From: Bartonella queenslandensis
GTDB taxonomy: Bacteria; Pseudomonadota; Alphaproteobacteria; Rhizobiales; Rhizobiaceae
Direction: 5' to 3'
DNA: 49,913 nt
NCBI RefSeq assembly: GCF_018155095.1
Contig: NZ_NAAI01000013.1
Span: 1 to 49,913, forward strand
Position 1 is the stretch's first letter. Every line of letters begins with the position of its first letter. The notes under the pieces were generated by a model, which worked only from the letters and a program-made list of their open reading frames with translations, was not told the origin of the DNA and ran no database searches. The translations under genes and the position numbers were made by a program. Shown here piece by piece: positions 216 through 40,013 of the stretch.

Positions 216-1373
216 GTGAGGGGGATTCATAGATTATCAGCATTACTTGTAAAGTCTGCTTCTCAAGGTAAATATTGTGATGGAGCAGGGCTATGGTTGA
301 ATGTTCGAAAAGACAATACGCGCTCTTGGTTCTTTCGTTATACATACCACAACAAACGCCGTGAAATGGGGCTTGGTCCAGTTGCACAACTTTCTCTGAA
401 AGAAGCGCGCGAACTTGCCAAGCATTATAGTGCTATTCTCAGAGAAGGCAATGACCCTATTGTCTTTCGAGAACAAACCGTCTTAAAACAGCAAAGCAAC
501 ATGTTCAGTGAGATTGCAACAGCGGCTTTTGAAAGTAAAAAAGCAGAGTTAAAAAATGAAGGCAAAAATGGGCGCTGGTTTTCTCCGCTGGAATTGCATG
601 TTATTCCACACATAGGTAGCCTCTCTATAGAGAAATTAACGGCTAATATCATTAGCAATGTTCTTGCACCCCTTTGGCATGAGAAAGCAGATACAGCACG
701 AAAAGCGTTAAACCGTATCAATATTTGCTTGAAATATGCGGCTGCTCTTGGTTTGGATGTTGATCTACAAGCTTGTATGAAAGCACGCGCCCTTTTGGGA
801 AAGCCTCGTACTACACCAACAAATATTCCTGCTATGCCATGGCAAGAAGTTCCGGCATTTTATCAGAGCTTGGATGATAATATCCTTTCAAATTTAGCAC
901 TGAAGCTCTTGATTTTGACAGGAGTACGGTCATATCCATTGCGCTATTTGCGTCTTGAACAAATTGATAAAGATATATGGACGATACCCAAAGAAAATAT
1001 GAAGGGCATTGTAGGAAAGGTTTCAGATTTTCGCGTGCCATTGAGTAATGAAGCTTTAAAAGTGATTGAAAAGTCTCTCCCCTTTGAAAAAAATGGTTTT
1101 CTCTTTTCTGGTCTTACCGGAAAACCAATTTCTGATGCAAGCATGGCAAAATATATGACAGTTTGTGGTTTGACTTATCGCCCCCATGGTTTTCGTTCCA
1201 GTTTACGGGACTGGATAGCAGAAACGACGTCAACACCCTTTGAGATTGCAGAAACTGTTCTTGCGCATTCAGTTGGGAGTTCAGTGACAAAAGCTTATAT
1301 GCGAACGGATTTTTTAGAACAACGCCATGCTCTCTTGGAACAGTGGGCTGCATTTATAACGGGAGATACTTGA
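216..1373 (+). CDS. int: Tyrosine-family phage integrase
   Basis: 385 aa with a GTG start. This site-specific recombinase would integrate and excise the prophage at the 16-bp core. The N-terminal part (about 1-95) looks like the DUF4102 arm-binding domain, followed by a core-binding region (about 95-200) and a catalytic domain. Catalytic residues are visible in order: R238 in the TGVRS box, H324 and R327 in HGFRSSLRDW, H351 in LAHSVG and the nucleophile Y361. Length is typical of P4-type integrases. Its stop codon overlaps the -35 box of the next RNA leader. In the circular phage it would lie downstream of the excisionase gene. Confidence 0.95.
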   Translation: MRGIHRLSALLVKSASQGKYCDGAGLWLNVRKDNTRSWFFRYTYHNKRREMGLGPVAQLSLKEARELAKHYSAILREGNDPIVFREQTVLKQQSNMFSEIATAAFESKKAELKNEGKNGRWFSPLELHVIPHIGSLSIEKLTANIISNVLAPLWHEKADTARKALNRINICLKYAAALGLDVDLQACMKARALLGKPRTTPTNIPAMPWQEVPAFYQSLDDNILSNLALKLLILTGVRSYPLRYLRLEQIDKDIWTIPKENMKGIVGKVSDFRVPLSNEALKVIEKSLPFEKNGFLFSGLTGKPISDASMAKYMTVCGLTYRPHGFRSSLRDWIAETTSTPFEIAETVLAHSVGSSVTKAYMRTDFLEQRHALLEQWAAFITGDT

Positions 1374-1399
1374 CAATATGGCTACATTATGTCTATTCT
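1370..1399 (+). promoter_or_regulatory. Promoter of RNA leader L1
   Basis: TTGACA at 1370-1375 and TATTCT at 1394-1399 are separated by 18 bases. The predicted start, near 1406, falls exactly at the first paired base of the leader. The -35 box overlaps the integrase stop codon. L3 and L6 have the same box and spacing. Confidence 0.65.
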
Positions 1400-1405
1400 T
1401 AAATC

Positions 1406-1644
1406 AGGTGCCTAGAAAACACCTTAGACACATAGCGGATAGATTGCCGATACAATCTTTTCTCCGCACATTAAAGGCTTTGACTCATTATATGCCGTGG
1501 CATATAAAGGTCTTGTCGGGTGTGGTTATGCTATACAATACCCTTTTGGGAAAGGCATAACGACGGGCTATGTGCCGTGTTTTCTAGCACCCGGCGCTCT
1601 TCTAGAGTGTCAATAGAAGACATTTAAACACATAGGAGTTCATT
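1406..1644 (+). ncRNA. Structured antirepressor leader RNA, copy L1
   Basis: Copy-specific word CACATAG is at 1429-1435, its complement CTATGTG at 1568-1574, and the word again at 1629-1635, where its last bases begin the AGGAG ribosome-binding site of the gene at 1645. A second long-range helix pairs GGTGC(C)TAGAAAACAC (1407-1422) with GTGTTTTCTAGCACC (1577-1591), leaving one bulged base. Inside lie hairpins at about 1438-1462 (loop with GCCGA), 1488-1508 and GTTATGC/GCATAAC. A hairpin at 1593-1611 follows. The 1406-1611 core is about 206 nt, close to Bartonella Brt RNAs. I infer a translation switch in which the complement pairs with either the 5' word or the ribosome-binding site. Confidence 0.75.
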
Positions 1645-2193
1645 ATGAACACACTTATAGAAATTAAAGAACAAATCATTGATCAGGAAACTGTTCAAAC
1701 GGTAAACGCTCGTGATTTGCATGCGTTTTTGGAAATAGGGAAAGATTTTTCTACCTGGATTAAAGATCGCATTAATCAGTATAAATTTGAAGAGGGTAGT
1801 GATTTTATAAAAACACAAGATTTGCGGTCCCCAAAATTGGGGAGCGCAAAATCTAGAGCTGTTACAGCAATAGATTATCACCTTACCTTAGACATGGCCA
1901 AAGAACTTTCAATGGTTGAACGCAATGAGAAAGGTAGACAGGCTCGTCGTTACTTTATTGAGTGTGAAAAAAAGTTAAAAAGCCAATCTGTTGATTATGA
2001 TAATGATACACGCTTTGATTTGCCAAGTTACTGGGAGGGTATGAGTGCTGGTGAAAAAGCTTTGTATCTTTTAGGTCCTATCCATGTTCGTCTTATTGAT
2101 GCTTTCAGAGTAGATGAAGAGAACAGAAAATATAAAGCCCTCATTAAAGAAGCTAAGCAGGTTTTAGCAACATCTGTTACGAAAGCTGCTTAG
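1645..2193 (+). CDS. AntA/AntB-type phage antirepressor
   Basis: 182 aa. Residues about 15-110 carry an AntA antirepressor domain: VQTVNARDLHAFLEIG near the start, then WIKDRINQYKF, YHLTLDMAKELSMVERN and KGRQARRYFIECE. The last 60 residues are a separate module beginning DTRFDLPSYW and ending EEAKQVL-type sequence; it recurs in three other antirepressors here (11633, 33851, 39222). Such proteins bind and inactivate a lysogenic repressor. The gene is single, behind leader L1, which can mask its AGGAG site. The target repressor (here or elsewhere in the host) is unknown. Confidence 0.85.
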   Translation: MNTLIEIKEQIIDQETVQTVNARDLHAFLEIGKDFSTWIKDRINQYKFEEGSDFIKTQDLRSPKLGSAKSRAVTAIDYHLTLDMAKELSMVERNEKGRQARRYFIECEKKLKSQSVDYDNDTRFDLPSYWEGMSAGEKALYLLGPIHVRLIDAFRVDEENRKYKALIKEAKQVLATSVTKAA

Positions 2194-3588: not shown

Positions 3589-3712
3589 ATGCTTCTCCAT
3601 AAAAAAAGCCCTGCAAAAAGCAGAGCTGGATTAAAAAATTGACTTCTTTCCCATTCGAAAGGTTGGCTTGTTAAAACCTATGTAGCTTTTTCATTGGAAC
3701 AAAAGAATGTAT

Positions 3713-3746
3713 TTGACATTATAGAAATTGTATCTTATAAGTTACA
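3713..3746 (+). promoter_or_regulatory. Promoter and operator of the first HigB/HigA-type module
   Basis: TTGACA (3713-3718), 17 bases, TATAAG (3736-3741). The -10 box ends six bases before the ATG at 3748, so the transcript is probably leaderless. An inverted repeat TGTA-n-CTTATAAG-n-TACA (3729-3746) covers the -10 box and is a plausible site for autorepression by the antitoxin. Confidence 0.65.
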
Positions 3747-3747
3747 G

Positions 3748-4050
3748 ATGTTTACAGTATACAAAACAGAGCATTTTATAAAATGGTTAGATTCTTTAAA
3801 AGATGAGATTGCGCAAGCACATATTGTTAAACGCATAGCAAGAATAGAAACGGGATTTCTTGGAAATGTAAAATTTTTCCGTGGAATTGGAGAGTTAAAA
3901 ATACATCATGGTCCTGGCTATAGAATCTATTTTGTAAAACAAGGGAAACAAATCATTTTGTTATTAAATGCTGGTGATAAATCTACACAACAAAAGGATA
4001 TCGAAAAAGCTCTTCAATTAGTAAAGGAAATGAAACATGGAAATTACTAA
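3748..4050 (+). CDS. RelE/HigB-like toxin (phage Gp49-like family)
   Basis: 100 aa from ATG 3748. The ORF is open from 3694, but the promoter -10 box lies between, which rules out the longer start. Family pattern: FIKWLDSLKDE, IVKRIARIETGFLGNVK, and the strongly conserved GELKIHHGPGYRIYF. Members are small RNase-fold toxins that cut mRNA at the ribosome. The 3' end overlaps the antitoxin gene by 14 bases, giving toxin-first order. A second, diverged copy of the pair follows at 4403. Confidence 0.85.
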   Translation: MFTVYKTEHFIKWLDSLKDEIAQAHIVKRIARIETGFLGNVKFFRGIGELKIHHGPGYRIYFVKQGKQIILLLNAGDKSTQQKDIEKALQLVKEMKHGNY

Positions 4051-4357
4051 ATTTGACACAAGTGAATATTTCAAGACACCTGAGACACAAAGGATTCTTT
4101 TAGAAGATGCTCTTGAAAGCAAAGATAGTAAGTATCTTGCTCATGTTCTTGGTATAATAGCAAAAAACCAAGGAATGAGTAAAATCGCTCAAAATACAGG
4201 ATTATCAAGAGAGTCTCTTTATCGTTCTTTAAGCGATAAAGGTGATCCACGGCTTTCTACTTTTCTTAGTGTTTTAAGTGCTTTAGATTTGCAAATGAGT
4301 TTGACGCCCATTCAAAAGAATTGTAAGGAGGAAACAGCTTTAGAAGAAGCATCTTAA
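4037..4357 (+). CDS. HigA-like antitoxin with helix-turn-helix
   Basis: 106 aa. The N-terminus (FDTSEYFKTPE) and the central helix-turn-helix (MSKIAQNTGLSRESLYRSLSDKGDPRLSTFL) match antitoxins that partner Gp49-like toxins. It should bind the toxin and repress the shared promoter through the palindrome at 3729-3746. The gene overlaps the toxin gene by 14 bases. Confidence 0.85.
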   Translation: MEITKFDTSEYFKTPETQRILLEDALESKDSKYLAHVLGIIAKNQGMSKIAQNTGLSRESLYRSLSDKGDPRLSTFLSVLSALDLQMSLTPIQKNCKEETALEEAS

Positions 4358-4368
4358 TCATTTCCTTC

Positions 4369-4397
4369 TTGACAAATATTCGTTTATAAACGAATAT
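4369..4397 (+). promoter_or_regulatory. Promoter with perfect 22-bp palindromic operator
   Basis: TTGACA (4369-4374), 17 bases, GAATAT (4392-4397). A perfect 22-bp palindrome at 4376-4397 (half-site ATATTCGTTTA) fills the spacer and the -10 box. The -10 box ends five bases before the toxin ATG at 4403, predicting a leaderless mRNA. It is the likely antitoxin binding site. Confidence 0.75.
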
Positions 4398-4402
4398 GCA
4401 TT

Positions 4403-4726
4403 ATGTTTGAAATACGTCACTACCTTACCTCTGATGGCAAAGACTTGATAGCCGATTGGCTGCGAAAGCTCCGTGATGTGCAGGCTAAAACTGCAATTAT
4501 TCGCCGTCTTAATCGTTTAGAGCAAGGAAACTTTGGCGATTTCAAGCCGCTTCGTGATGGTGTCTATGAACTGCGTATTAATATTGGTCCTGGTTACCGA
4601 GTTTATTATGCTCAGTCTGGAAAGACCGTATTATTGTTATTATGCGGTGGTAGCAAAAAAACACAAGACACCGATATCACTCGTGCATGTGCTTGTTGGT
4701 ACGATTGGCAAAACCGTGAAGATTAA
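4403..4726 (+). CDS. RelE/HigB-like toxin, second tandem copy
   Basis: 107 aa. Same family as the toxin at 3748: ADWLRKLRDVQAKTAIIRRL, RLEQGNFGDFKPL and the core YELRINIGPGYRVYYA. Divergence from its neighbour suggests two independently acquired modules rather than a recent duplication. The antitoxin gene follows after 11 bases. The palindromic promoter just upstream fixes the start. Confidence 0.85.
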   Translation: MFEIRHYLTSDGKDLIADWLRKLRDVQAKTAIIRRLNRLEQGNFGDFKPLRDGVYELRINIGPGYRVYYAQSGKTVLLLLCGGSKKTQDTDITRACACWYDWQNRED

Positions 4727-4737
4727 GGAGTGCAAAA

Positions 4738-5049
4738 ATGAAAGACCGTAGCCATGATGATGCAATGGCAGAAATATTCCATAATGACCCTGAGTTGGCA
4801 GCAGCGACCCTTGATGCAATCCTAGCAGATGGTGACCAGGGGGAACTGCTTGTAACACTTCGTCAAATGGCAAAAGTCTATGGTGGTGTTCAAGCTGTAG
4901 CTAAAGCAGCCAAACTGAATCCTACACAACTTTATCGTACACTTTCAGAAAAAGGCAATCCAGAGTTCCGCAGCTTGAATGCTTTACTACGTACCATGGG
5001 GCTTCGCTTAGCTGTACAACCTCTTGAACGACCCGTTCCACACGTTTAA
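4738..5049 (+). CDS. HigA-like antitoxin, second tandem copy
   Basis: 103 aa, with a GGAG ribosome-binding site before the ATG. Helix-turn-helix region about 55-90: GGVQAVAKAAKLNPTQLYRTLSEKGNPEFRSL. It is the partner of the toxin at 4403 and the likely ligand of the palindrome at 4376-4397. Alternating helices with DPELAAATLDAIL near the N-terminus probably form the toxin-binding part. Confidence 0.85.
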   Translation: MKDRSHDDAMAEIFHNDPELAAATLDAILADGDQGELLVTLRQMAKVYGGVQAVAKAAKLNPTQLYRTLSEKGNPEFRSLNALLRTMGLRLAVQPLERPVPHV

Positions 5050-11393: not shown

Positions 11394-11632
11394 AGGTGCC
11401 TAGAAAACACCTTGATAGTAAGCGGATAGATTGCCGATACAGTCTTTTTCCGTGCATTGAATGCTTTGACTCATTATATGCGCATAGCGTATAATAGGGT
11501 TGTCGGGTGTAGTTATGCTATACAATACCCTTTGAGGGGAAAGTGTAACGACGGACTTACTACCGTGTTTTCTAGCACCCGATACCCTTCTAGGGTGTCA
11601 ATAGAAGACGTCTAAATAGTAAGGAGTTCATC
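11394..11632 (+). ncRNA. Structured antirepressor leader RNA, copy L2
   Basis: Word TAGTAAG at 11416-11422, complement CTTACTA at 11556-11562, word again at 11617-11623 fused to GAG to form the ribosome-binding site. The long-range helix GGTGC(C)TAGAAAACAC / GTGTTTTCTAGCACC (11395-11410 with 11565-11579) is kept with its bulge. The hairpin before the ribosome-binding site is ACCCT-TCT-AGGGT, differing from L1 by compensatory changes. Same architecture as L1 with an entirely different word, so pairing rather than sequence is conserved. It also fills the gene-free stretch 11283-11632. Confidence 0.75.
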
Positions 11633-33279: not shown

Positions 33280-33519
33280 AATGAACTCTTTGGTAATAGA
33301 GGTTTTCTATTGACACTCTAAAAGAGTGCCGGGTGCTAGAAAACACGGTACCAAGTCCGTCGTTATGCTTTTCCCAAAAGGGTATTGTATAGCGTAACTA
33401 CACCCGACAAGACCTTTATATGCCACAGCATATAATGAGTCAAAATCTTTAATGTTCAGAAGATTGATTATTTCGGCAATCAATCCGCTTGGTATTTTAA
33501 GGTGTTTTCTAGGCACCTG
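33280..33519 (-). ncRNA. Structured antirepressor leader RNA, copy L3
   Basis: Minus strand: word TACCAAG at 33494-33488, complement CTTGGTA at 33355-33349, and TACCAAA at 33295-33289 running into GAG of the ribosome-binding site (six of seven bases match). The bulged helix GGTGC(C)TAGAAAACAC / GTGTTTTCTAGCACC is kept. A hairpin with paired GATTGATT/AATCAATC around GCCGAAAT and a CACTCT-TTT-AGAGTG hairpin are clear. Same fold as L1 and L2 with its own word. Confidence 0.72.
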
Positions 33520-34381: not shown

Positions 34382-34570
34382 CTTATTAGTCCTTTGTTTT
34401 ATAAGTTAAAGTATCCAGGGCTAAAACAACCGAACTAATACAGTCCTTCGTATCTTTAGGTTACCCTTGGACATACACACGAAGACCCTGGACAAGATTT
34501 CTTATGATAGGCAACAGATCTTTCGGGATACTGTTGAACCGATTAGTTACGAGGTGTTTTAAGCCTGTCA
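34382..34570 (-). ncRNA. Structured antirepressor leader RNA, divergent copy L4
   Basis: Minus strand: AACTAAT at 34548-34542, complement TATTAGTT at 34440-34433, then ACTAATA at 34390-34384, directly after the AAAGGA ribosome-binding site. GGC(T)TAAAAC near the 5' end pairs with GTTTTAGCC (34427-34419), keeping the single bulged base seen in the other copies. Most other sequence differs from L1-L3 and L6, so this is a separate subclass with the same logic. Confidence 0.62.
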
Positions 34571-34630: not shown

Positions 34631-34840
34631 GACACTCCATAAGAGTGTCGGGTGCTAGAAAACACGGCAACAAGCCCGTCGTTATGCCTTTCCCAAAAGG
34701 GTATTGTATAGCATAACCACACCCGACAATGCCATTATATGCGTGTAGCGTATAACGAGTCAAAATCTTTAATGTGCGAAAGACTGATTATTTCGGCAAC
34801 CAATCCGCTTGTTGTTTTTAAGGTGTTTTCTAGGCACCTA
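34631..34840 (-). ncRNA. Orphan leader RNA, copy L5, without a gene
   Basis: Minus strand: GGTGC(C)TAGAAAACAC (34838-34823), word CAACAAG (34814-34808), complement CTTGTTG (34674-34668), the matching GTGTTTTCTAGCACC, and a perfect final hairpin (GACACTC/GAGTGTC, 34631-34649). No third word or ribosome-binding site and no antirepressor gene follow; leader L4 begins instead. It keeps a promoter, so it may be a free small RNA or a relic of a deleted gene. Confidence 0.65.
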
Positions 34841-39770: not shown

Positions 39771-40013
39771 AATGAACTCCTAGTTGTTAGATGTTTTTCA
39801 TTGACACTTTTTATAAAAATGCCGGGTGCTGAAAAACACGGCAACTAGCCCGTCGTTATGCCTTTCCCCAAAGGGTATTGTATAGCATAACCACACCCGA
39901 CAAAATTATTATATGCGTGTAGCATACAATGAGTCAAAGCTTTTAAATTGCGGAAGATCAGTTATTTCGGCAACTAATCCGCTAGTTGTTTTCAAGTGTT
40001 TTTCAAGCACCTG
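39771..40013 (-). ncRNA. Structured antirepressor leader RNA, copy L6
   Basis: Minus strand: word CAACTAG at 39988-39982, complement CTAGTTG at 39848-39842, word again at 39786-39780 followed by GAG of the ribosome-binding site. The long helix is GGTGC(T)TGAAAAACAC with GTGTTTTTCAGCACC: two base pairs changed on both strands relative to L1, with the bulge kept. The final hairpin is CAxTTTTT/AAAAAGTG, again different sequence but paired. This copy gives the strongest covariation evidence. Confidence 0.75.

Follow-up and report, generated by a model that had tools for sequence, protein, structure and literature searches.

In the leaders of several regulator genes of a Bartonella queenslandensis prophage, a seven-letter word occurs upstream and again at the ribosome-binding site, and its complement lies between the two copies. 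The prophage character of the stretch analysed (contig NZ_NAAI01000013.1, 49,913 nt, referred to in its whole length as the window) is given by its integrase, tail sheath, tape measure and terminase genes (10 ORFs scanned). A first, sequence-only reading took the leaders for RNA switches in which the complement would bind either copy of the word, leaving the ribosome-binding site open or closed, and knew of no described element of such design. The locus raises the question of what the middle element is and where it acts. Its family, its covariation with both flanks and its occurrence without a downstream partner make it quite probable that each leader encodes a small antisense RNA of the c4 type (sRNA-Xcc1), which by means of a two-part address is predicted to silence the matching antirepressor gene at its ribosome-binding site.

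Layout of the leaders

The words read in leader L1 (1406-1644), CACATAG on either side of the complement CTATGTG, are present where they had been placed (Table 1), and the layouts of L2 (TAGTAAG/CTTACTA/TAGTAAG), L6 (CAACTAG/CTAGTTG/CAACTAG) and the divergent L4 (AACTAAT/ATTAGTT/ACTAAT) are likewise borne out; L3 reads TACCAAG/CTTGGTA/TACCAAA as claimed, with one letter off at the ribosome-binding site. By itself CACATAG is not rare, with seven matches on both strands of the window against 4.04 expected and 11 of 100 shuffles reaching seven, so that the evidence resides in the layout and in covariation, not in the word. Alongside the word (b1, b', b2) runs a second address, absent from the first reading, in which a' (GTGTTTTCTAG) is complementary to a1 (CTAGAAAACAC) ahead of b1 and, with G-U pairs allowed, to a2 (TAGAAGACAT) ahead of b2; this address also covaries. 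The start codon of the L1 gene lies inside a short palindrome, GTTCATTATGAAC (window 1638-1650), and a loosely similar pattern is seen in 69 of 128 Bartonella leaders.

Table 1. Leader elements, RNAs and downstream genes located in the window
Feature	Position	Strand	Basis or detail
Promoter-like sequence P1 of L1, TTGACA-18-TATTCT, upstream of a1	1370..1399	+	promoter scan
a1 of L1, CTAGAAAACAC, partner of a'	1412..1422	+	sequence, covariation
b1 of L1, CACATAG, partner of b'	1429..1435	+	sequence, covariation
Hairpin with T-rich 3' part in the b1-to-RNA interval of L1	1435..1467	+	folding
Promoter-like sequence P2 of L1, TTGACT-17-TATAAA, ending 5 nt before the RNA	1480..1508	+	sequence
c4-like RNA of L1 (RF02221, sRNA-Xcc1): outer stem, hairpins 1 and 2	1514..1604	+	49.2 bits (gathering score 53)
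b' of L1, CTATGTG, loop of hairpin 2	1568..1574	+	alignment fold
a' of L1, GTGTTTTCTAG, 3' arm of hairpin 2 and strand behind	1577..1587	+	
a2 of L1, TAGAAGACAT, partner of a'	1614..1623	+	sequence, covariation
b2 of L1, CACATAG, overlapping AGGAG of the ribosome-binding site	1629..1635	+	sequence, covariation
L1 antirepressor gene, AntA PF08346, PHROG anti-repressor Ant	1645..2193	+	family scans
c4-like RNA of L2, address CTTACTA	11501..11592	+	b1 11416-11422, b' 11556-11562, b2 11617-11623
Rha-type regulator gene behind L2, PF09669	11633..12151	+	family scans
AntA and KilAC antirepressor gene behind L3	32548..33279	-	family scans
c4-like RNA of L3, address CTTGGTA	33319..33409	-	b1 33488-33494, b' 33349-33355, b2 33289-33295 (one mismatch)
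AntA antirepressor gene behind L4	33851..34381	-	family scans
Divergent RNA of L4, same fold	34415..34495	-	b1 34542-34548, b' ATTAGTT 34433-34439 (hairpin 2 loop), b2 34385-34390
Orphan c4-like RNA, address CTTGTTG, without matching target behind	34638..34728	-	b1 34808-34814, b' 34668-34674
AntA antirepressor gene behind L6	39222..39770	-	family scans
c4-like RNA of L6, address CTAGTTG	39812..39902	-	b1 39982-39988, b' 39842-39848, b2 39780-39786

The middle element and its match to sRNA-Xcc1

By covariance model, the stretch between the two words appears to be the same RNA as sRNA-Xcc1 (RF02221), which matches five window copies with E below 0.001 and 48.0-53.4 bits, one of them at or above the gathering score of 53 and four at 48.0-50.6; for the L1 RNA, E is 5.6e-08 in a search of 351 bases. 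RF02221 is the only Rfam family that the window matches at the gathering score, and the sole copy above that score is the orphan RNA (53.4 bits). The Rfam match escaped the first reading, as did the orphan's possession of a 5' word (CAACAAG) with no target behind. The fold of the RNA is that of RF02221, with an outer stem, a hairpin 1 bearing the conserved ATACAATACCC, and a hairpin 2; in the alignment fold b' occupies the loop of hairpin 2 and a' lies just behind it. Both a1-b1 and a2-b2 are complementary to b'-a' in four of the five copies (with one mismatch in L3), and the fifth lacks a2-b2. The L4 RNA has no Rfam match at the gathering score and shares fold and word order with the other copies; RNAs of its type occur as 12 copies in 11 of 61 Bartonella genomes, seven with ATTAGTT and five with ATTGGTT, each matched on both sides. 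Two more RF02221 copies lie elsewhere in the genome. The seventh copy of the genome (L007:1500-1589) is strongly diverged, at 32.2 bits, and is followed by a 12-nt complement (CCAAAGAGCAAA).

The RNA is found in 41 of the 61 Bartonella genomes, in up to 44 copies, with a copy above the cut-off in 32 of the 61, and across the phylum 51 of the 299 genomes sampled carry it, this genome among them, from 31 of 153 genera. Membership in the Rfam C4 family was considered and rejected, since a search of this genome with RF01695 finds nothing up to E 10.

In Xanthomonas, sRNA-Xcc1 is a discrete RNA of 88 nt (PMC2996969). It has been presented in print as a possible virulence RNA or as controlled by virulence regulators, or as an RNA found in vesicles with computed targets (PMC2996969, PMC12189769), and it lies upstream of symE in Xanthomonas integron cassettes, where a divergent regulatory mechanism has been suggested (PMC12444791). 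The available portions of these three sources state neither an address nor a link to antirepressors. A survey of the open-licence literature, mostly at title level, found sRNA-Xcc1 and antirepressors nowhere together, and none of its titles concerns antisense RNAs to Bartonella antirepressors, each of which is weak evidence of absence. The antisense reading would hence provide an Rfam family that has no function in the literature examined with a concrete predicted one, and with predictable targets at the ribosome-binding sites of antirepressor (or SymE) genes.

Covariation of the two addresses

Bartonella copies were gathered with one regular expression from genome-search loci, 100 further stretches and the contigs of two collection scans, yielding 136 unique copies, of which 130 have full flanks; the six edge copies dropped include, by arithmetic, window L3. 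The copy's own seven-letter word is found on both sides in 109 of the 130, upstream only in 11, downstream only in eight and on neither side in two, whereas the words of other copies, placed in the same flanks, match both sides in 0 of 4680 cases, upstream only in 26 and downstream only in 11. This chance-test set comprises 37 addresses, and 42 address words occur in 154 copies of the 17 genomes listed.

Covariation was assessed in a set of 80 leaders that represents each address and a' type once and for which matching was not a selection criterion. The upstream pairings (b1:b' with a1:a') are formed in 96.4% of cells, with a covariation of 0.477 against 0.153 in shuffled and at most 0.072 in slid controls, and the downstream pairings (b':b2 with a':a2) in 88.1%, with 0.413 against 0.148 shuffled and 0.096 slid. 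Five b positions are variable in this set, each with three to five standard pair types with b1. The covariation that the sequence-only reading had proposed to look for in a larger alignment is thus present at both sites, far above both kinds of control, and its central observation, complementarity maintained while the sequence is free to change, holds at both flanks. It follows that both flanking words are possible partners of the middle word.

The likeness of the copies, and the repetition of the same address runs in one genome with 44 copies (G035), in the manner of duplicated segments, might suggest that the copies are alike by recent duplication, with complementarity inherited rather than selected. 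Such an origin is highly improbable, and the covariation already contradicts it: at five positions of b and at three or four of a, both sides vary and pairing is kept, with as many as five pair types at a position. The shuffled and slid controls fall far lower, and the RNA is carried by 31 of the 153 sampled genera. The code of the RNA-target pair has changed many times, and complementarity has been retained at three places.

In the distant set, made up of the collection-scan matches listed and biased towards part of hairpin 1, which the search pattern fixes, 86 of 142 copies have a word of 7 nt or longer in common with each flank, compared with 3.5% when another copy's RNA is put in as a control; among these listed matches, 56 of 142 fall short of a 7-nt word on both sides. 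The geometry of the Bartonella copies with a complete ORF is narrow, with b' and b2 separated by 49-58 nt (52-56 in 61 of 65) and b2 and the ATG by 6-14 nt (8-12 in 62 of 65). One leader (L318:542-798, minus strand) has b1 CGAACAG with b'/b2 CTTGCTA/TAGCAAG and resembles a recombinant of two address types.

Promoter-like sequences, terminator-like hairpins and predicted folds

The best promoter-like pair ends 5-6 nt before the RNA in 98 of 128 Bartonella copies, the commonest such pair (P2) being TTGACT-18-TATAAT (56 of 128), and TTGACA lies 188-215 nt ahead of b' in 122 of 128. The P2 of L1 is absent from the output of a stricter promoter scan. The position of P2 at the 5' end of the RNA suggests that this end would not be made by RNase P in Bartonella. 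Among the distant matches listed, P2-like pairs are not enriched, and an own promoter was rejected as a feature of the whole family, being found in Bartonella only. The compactness of the RF02221 RNA, the P2 sequence 5-6 nt ahead of it and the existence of copies without a target are together better accommodated by a separate antisense RNA than by a part of a riboswitch.

The predicted folds were obtained for 98 unique leaders, selected because their b1 and b2 are exact and TTGACA lies upstream. In full-length transcripts from the upstream promoter, b' is predicted to lie on b1 in 90 of the 98 and on b2, the word at the ribosome-binding site, in four; in transcripts beginning at the RNA start it is predicted on b2 in 49 of 98. 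The Shine-Dalgarno stretch is computed as unpaired at 0.33 with the upstream start and 0.34 with the RNA start, and L1 itself is predicted to form b1:b' from the former and b':b2 from the latter. Since b' falls mostly on b1 and Shine-Dalgarno accessibility does not change, folding alone predicts no opening in cis. The proposal that the middle word pairs alternatively is accordingly upheld by covariation and by an L1 leader that folds both ways, but its extension to an open and a closed state in cis finds no support in folding. A switch within one mRNA, in which b' would pair with b1 (open) or b2 (closed) as a signal or the order of synthesis decides, and which would involve no separate RNA, is improbable on these grounds. 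It is favoured by the covariation of both pairings, by the dependence of the L1 fold on transcript start and by the precedent of IsrK, whose alternative structures have been shown experimentally and whose readthrough mRNA encodes an antirepressor (PMC4825925), but against it stand the promoter-like P2 of the Bartonella RNA and the orphans that retain b1:b' without b2, namely 10 of 12 in Bartonella and all six in a genome of Xanthomonas melonis.

Among the distant matches listed, 65 of 112 copies have a hairpin resembling a terminator in the interval from b1 to the RNA, against 2.3% of shuffles. At the same place in Bartonella, a terminator is found in one of 119 copies by a strict scan and in 44 of 119 by a relaxed one (2.7% in shuffles), and the scan of L1 found none. 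Strong in relatives and weak in Bartonella, a terminator behind b1 was likewise rejected as a family-wide feature. With P2 not enriched in relatives and terminators nearly absent from Bartonella by the strict scan, the parts of the model differ by lineage.

The hairpin of the relatives is what would be expected of an IsrK-type activator, in which a short a1-b1 RNA, running from the upstream promoter to the terminator, binds b'-a' and frees the lock, so that the antirepressor is turned on. This activator is a possibility that we hold with considerable doubt. On its side are also the ability of short IsrK to activate its own readthrough mRNA in trans (PMC4825925) and the matches of both RF01394 (isrK, below its gathering score) and RF03163 (c4-a1b1) to the a1-b1 part of phage P1, but in Bartonella the terminator that it needs is weak or absent. 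IsrK-type activation can be compatible with the antisense lock, as its off-switch.

Genes behind the RNAs

The genes directly behind the window leaders are of the AntA or Rha type, and by this position are predicted to be under their control. Family scans covered 62 Bartonella ORFs of at least 60 aa (in 52 further copies the ORF runs off the stretch, and 13 lack an exact b2), among which AntA is matched by 37, ANT by 18 and Rha by nine, one ORF possibly matching several families. Ten of the 62 match the YdcK beta-solenoid family PF18836, so that a class of non-regulatory proteins may also sit under the RNA lock. In the distant set, the scan was restricted to ORFs whose start lies 0-22 nt past the b2 word, and it took in 72 of the 73 long and 31 of the 32 short ORFs of this kind. 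Among the matches listed, and with several families possible per ORF, the 72 long ORFs match Bro-N (25), P22_AR_C (20), KilA-N (15), Rha (12), P22_AR_N (9) and AntA (8), and the 31 short ones have few Pfam matches (AntA 3, Bro-N 2, P22_AR_N 1, SymE 2), some matching PHROG anti-repressor. Phage antirepressors from several families thus make up most of the long ORFs scanned.

SymE (PF08845) follows the RNA in two of the scanned cases, and a third SymE-like gene (L394) was recognized by eye in the same genome as one of them. At all three symE starts there is a word complementary to the RNA, and the same word lies upstream. One of these genes (L391) belongs to a gammaproteobacterial MAG (G063) and the other two (L392 and L394) to G062, each with a complete a1-b1 / RNA / a2-b2 leader. 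By this arrangement the three leaders are predicted to provide an RNA antitoxin of the c4 type.

Relation to known systems and proposed mechanism

The layout turns out to have described counterparts, in contrast to what the first reading supposed: c4 of phage P1 (NC_005856), the IsrK leader and the CI, seqA and seqC RNAs of P4 share this kind of arrangement (PMC4825925). In NC_005856, the annotated features a1 and b1 (both as putative), c4, a2 and b2 follow one another as they do here, about the point where the antirepressor operon begins. As read from the sequence, c4 has CACTAAC as b' in the hairpin 2 loop and CTGTCAA as a' in the strand after it. The c4 systems of P1 and P7 (RF01695; c4-a1b1, RF03163) thus resemble the Bartonella leaders in having a1-b1 upstream, b' in a loop with a', a2-b2 by the ribosome-binding site and, in P1, an antirepressor operon downstream, and also in an address that differs between P1 and P7 (PMC12197685, PMC5320573); c4 is reported to pair at its target and to block antirepressor translation (PMC12197685). 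P1 c4 differs in that it is processed by RNase P, whereas the Bartonella RNA has a promoter-like sequence of its own; in lacking the conserved ATACAATACCC..GGGAA of sRNA-Xcc1 hairpin 1; in its icd gene, the window regulator genes standing directly behind b2; and in copy number, RNAs of the sRNA-Xcc1 type being present many times per genome. Searched up to E 5, the c4 stretch of P1 contains no match to RF02221. Because the RF01695 and RF02221 models do not cross-match, the same way of working is claimed here, and common descent with c4 is not.

The IsrK/anrP system of Gifsy-1 likewise has complementary elements along one leader and a readthrough antirepressor mRNA, the CI RNA of P4 is an antisense RNA between two complementary sites (seqA and seqC), and both have a terminator behind the first element; they differ from the present leaders in that IsrK works through orf45 coupling and P4 CI acts on transcription termination, and the available text of their description mentions no family of diversified addresses (PMC4825925). 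The C4-like Group 1 sRNAs of Acinetobacter baumannii are comparable in forming a group within one genome and in their variable address loop, but they were matched to the C4 motif and not to sRNA-Xcc1, it is the a' loop that varies, and the accessible part of the report proposes phage or host targets without naming matched ones (PMC5320573). The Brt RNAs of Bartonella henselae, nine copies of 194-203 nt before regulator genes, have been termed "riboswitch-like"; they stand before helix-turn-helix trp genes and have been linked to badA (PMC5387305), the likeness being judged here by description. Identity with Brt RNAs was rejected, since AntA or Rha genes, not trp, follow the window leaders. To us the sRNA-Xcc1 variant and its spread appear new, the c4-type antisense lock being already known as a kind.

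In the proposed antisense model, the Bartonella RNA would arise as a short transcript in its own right, driven by its own promoter, and in relatives that have no such promoter it would be cut from the leader, as RNase P does for P1 c4. By pairing with a2-b2, the RNA would block translation of the antirepressor mRNA; with the antirepressor blocked, the phage repressor would act unopposed and the prophage would likely remain silent. Upstream, a1-b1 would offer the RNA a second landing place, and folding predicts that in a full-length transcript a1-b1 sequesters the b'-a' of the same copy. The terminator-like hairpin behind a1-b1 in many relatives suggests that the RNA would probably also decide termination there, as reported for P4 CI, and by analogy with P4 CI and IsrK as described in PMC4825925, termination or release is probably controlled at a1-b1 too.

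Computed duplexes agree with addressed silencing, the cognate target being the best duplex for 30 of 31 addresses, with a mean of -16.1 against -7.0 kcal/mol for non-cognate ones; the 31 addresses were picked for an exact target, which builds in part of the cognate strength but not the gap to the others. Since strong pairing is predicted for cognate words only, every address would mark out its own immunity group. Within genomes, same-address pairs number 47 against 41.3 in permutations (sd 6.6), as counted in this genome and the 16 whose copies are listed in full and number more than one (single-copy G047 and G050 excluded). Addresses within a genome are hence no more different than by chance; selection for differing addresses was rejected, and the result lends no support to immunity grouping. 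The address code is legible from sequence, so that silencing relations among prophages can be tabulated and put to the test.

Orphan RNAs

Twelve of the 130 Bartonella copies have no fully pairing b2 even with G-U pairs allowed, one of them (L089) being off by a single letter. In 10 of the 12, b1 is complementary, nine show the P2 pattern, and for 10 there is an intact leader with that address elsewhere. Six unique tandem pairs were found (two share both words), with addresses that differ within the pair and a spacing of 273-274 nt in five and 304 nt in one. Another of the 12 (L331, about 649, plus strand) has the address CTTGTTG and a matching b1, and the gene behind it carries a different address, TACCAAG, at its ribosome-binding site, possibly a swapped module.

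The orphan of the window stands before the L4 cassette. In six of the 12 L4 copies, an RNA is found some 195-200 nt upstream, with five addresses in all (TGTTG here, ATGTG twice, AATCG, ATGCA and ATCGA); the other six have no such RNA within 500 nt upstream. For the window orphan, the target word joined to GGAG, CAACAAGGAG, has a single occurrence in the genome, which falls within a coding sequence recognized by eye as DnaJ-like, and a target gene in its home genome was rejected on that account.

One Xanthomonas melonis genome carries six RNAs with five addresses (L389, L393, L396, L398, L399 and L400), matched by b1 in every case and with no b2 within 130 nt behind. SymE-like ORFs lie, by eye, behind L399 and L400; as these RNAs have no b2, the two genes are not established as their targets.

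Orphans of this kind may be immunity RNAs acting in trans, and would also fit remnants or modules moved by recombination. A bolder reading, which we regard as speculative, sees in the orphan sRNA-Xcc1 RNAs stackable, heritable immunity RNAs that would silence the antirepressors of foreign phages in trans, their rows forming an addressed anti-phage array, with the same module moved onto the toxin gene symE as an antitoxin. The rows counted in this tentative reading are the Bartonella tandem units of about 273 nt, the slot before L4 with its five addresses in six genomes, a reported five-copy row in Xylella and the Xanthomonas integron cassettes. Were such an immunity role true, an RNA would perhaps block other phages that share its address.

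Elsewhere in the window, at 3694-5049, two toxin-antitoxin pairs lie side by side, each with a RelE/ParE toxin (TIGR02683) and an addiction-module antidote (TIGR02684), the second antidote scoring under the curated cut-off.
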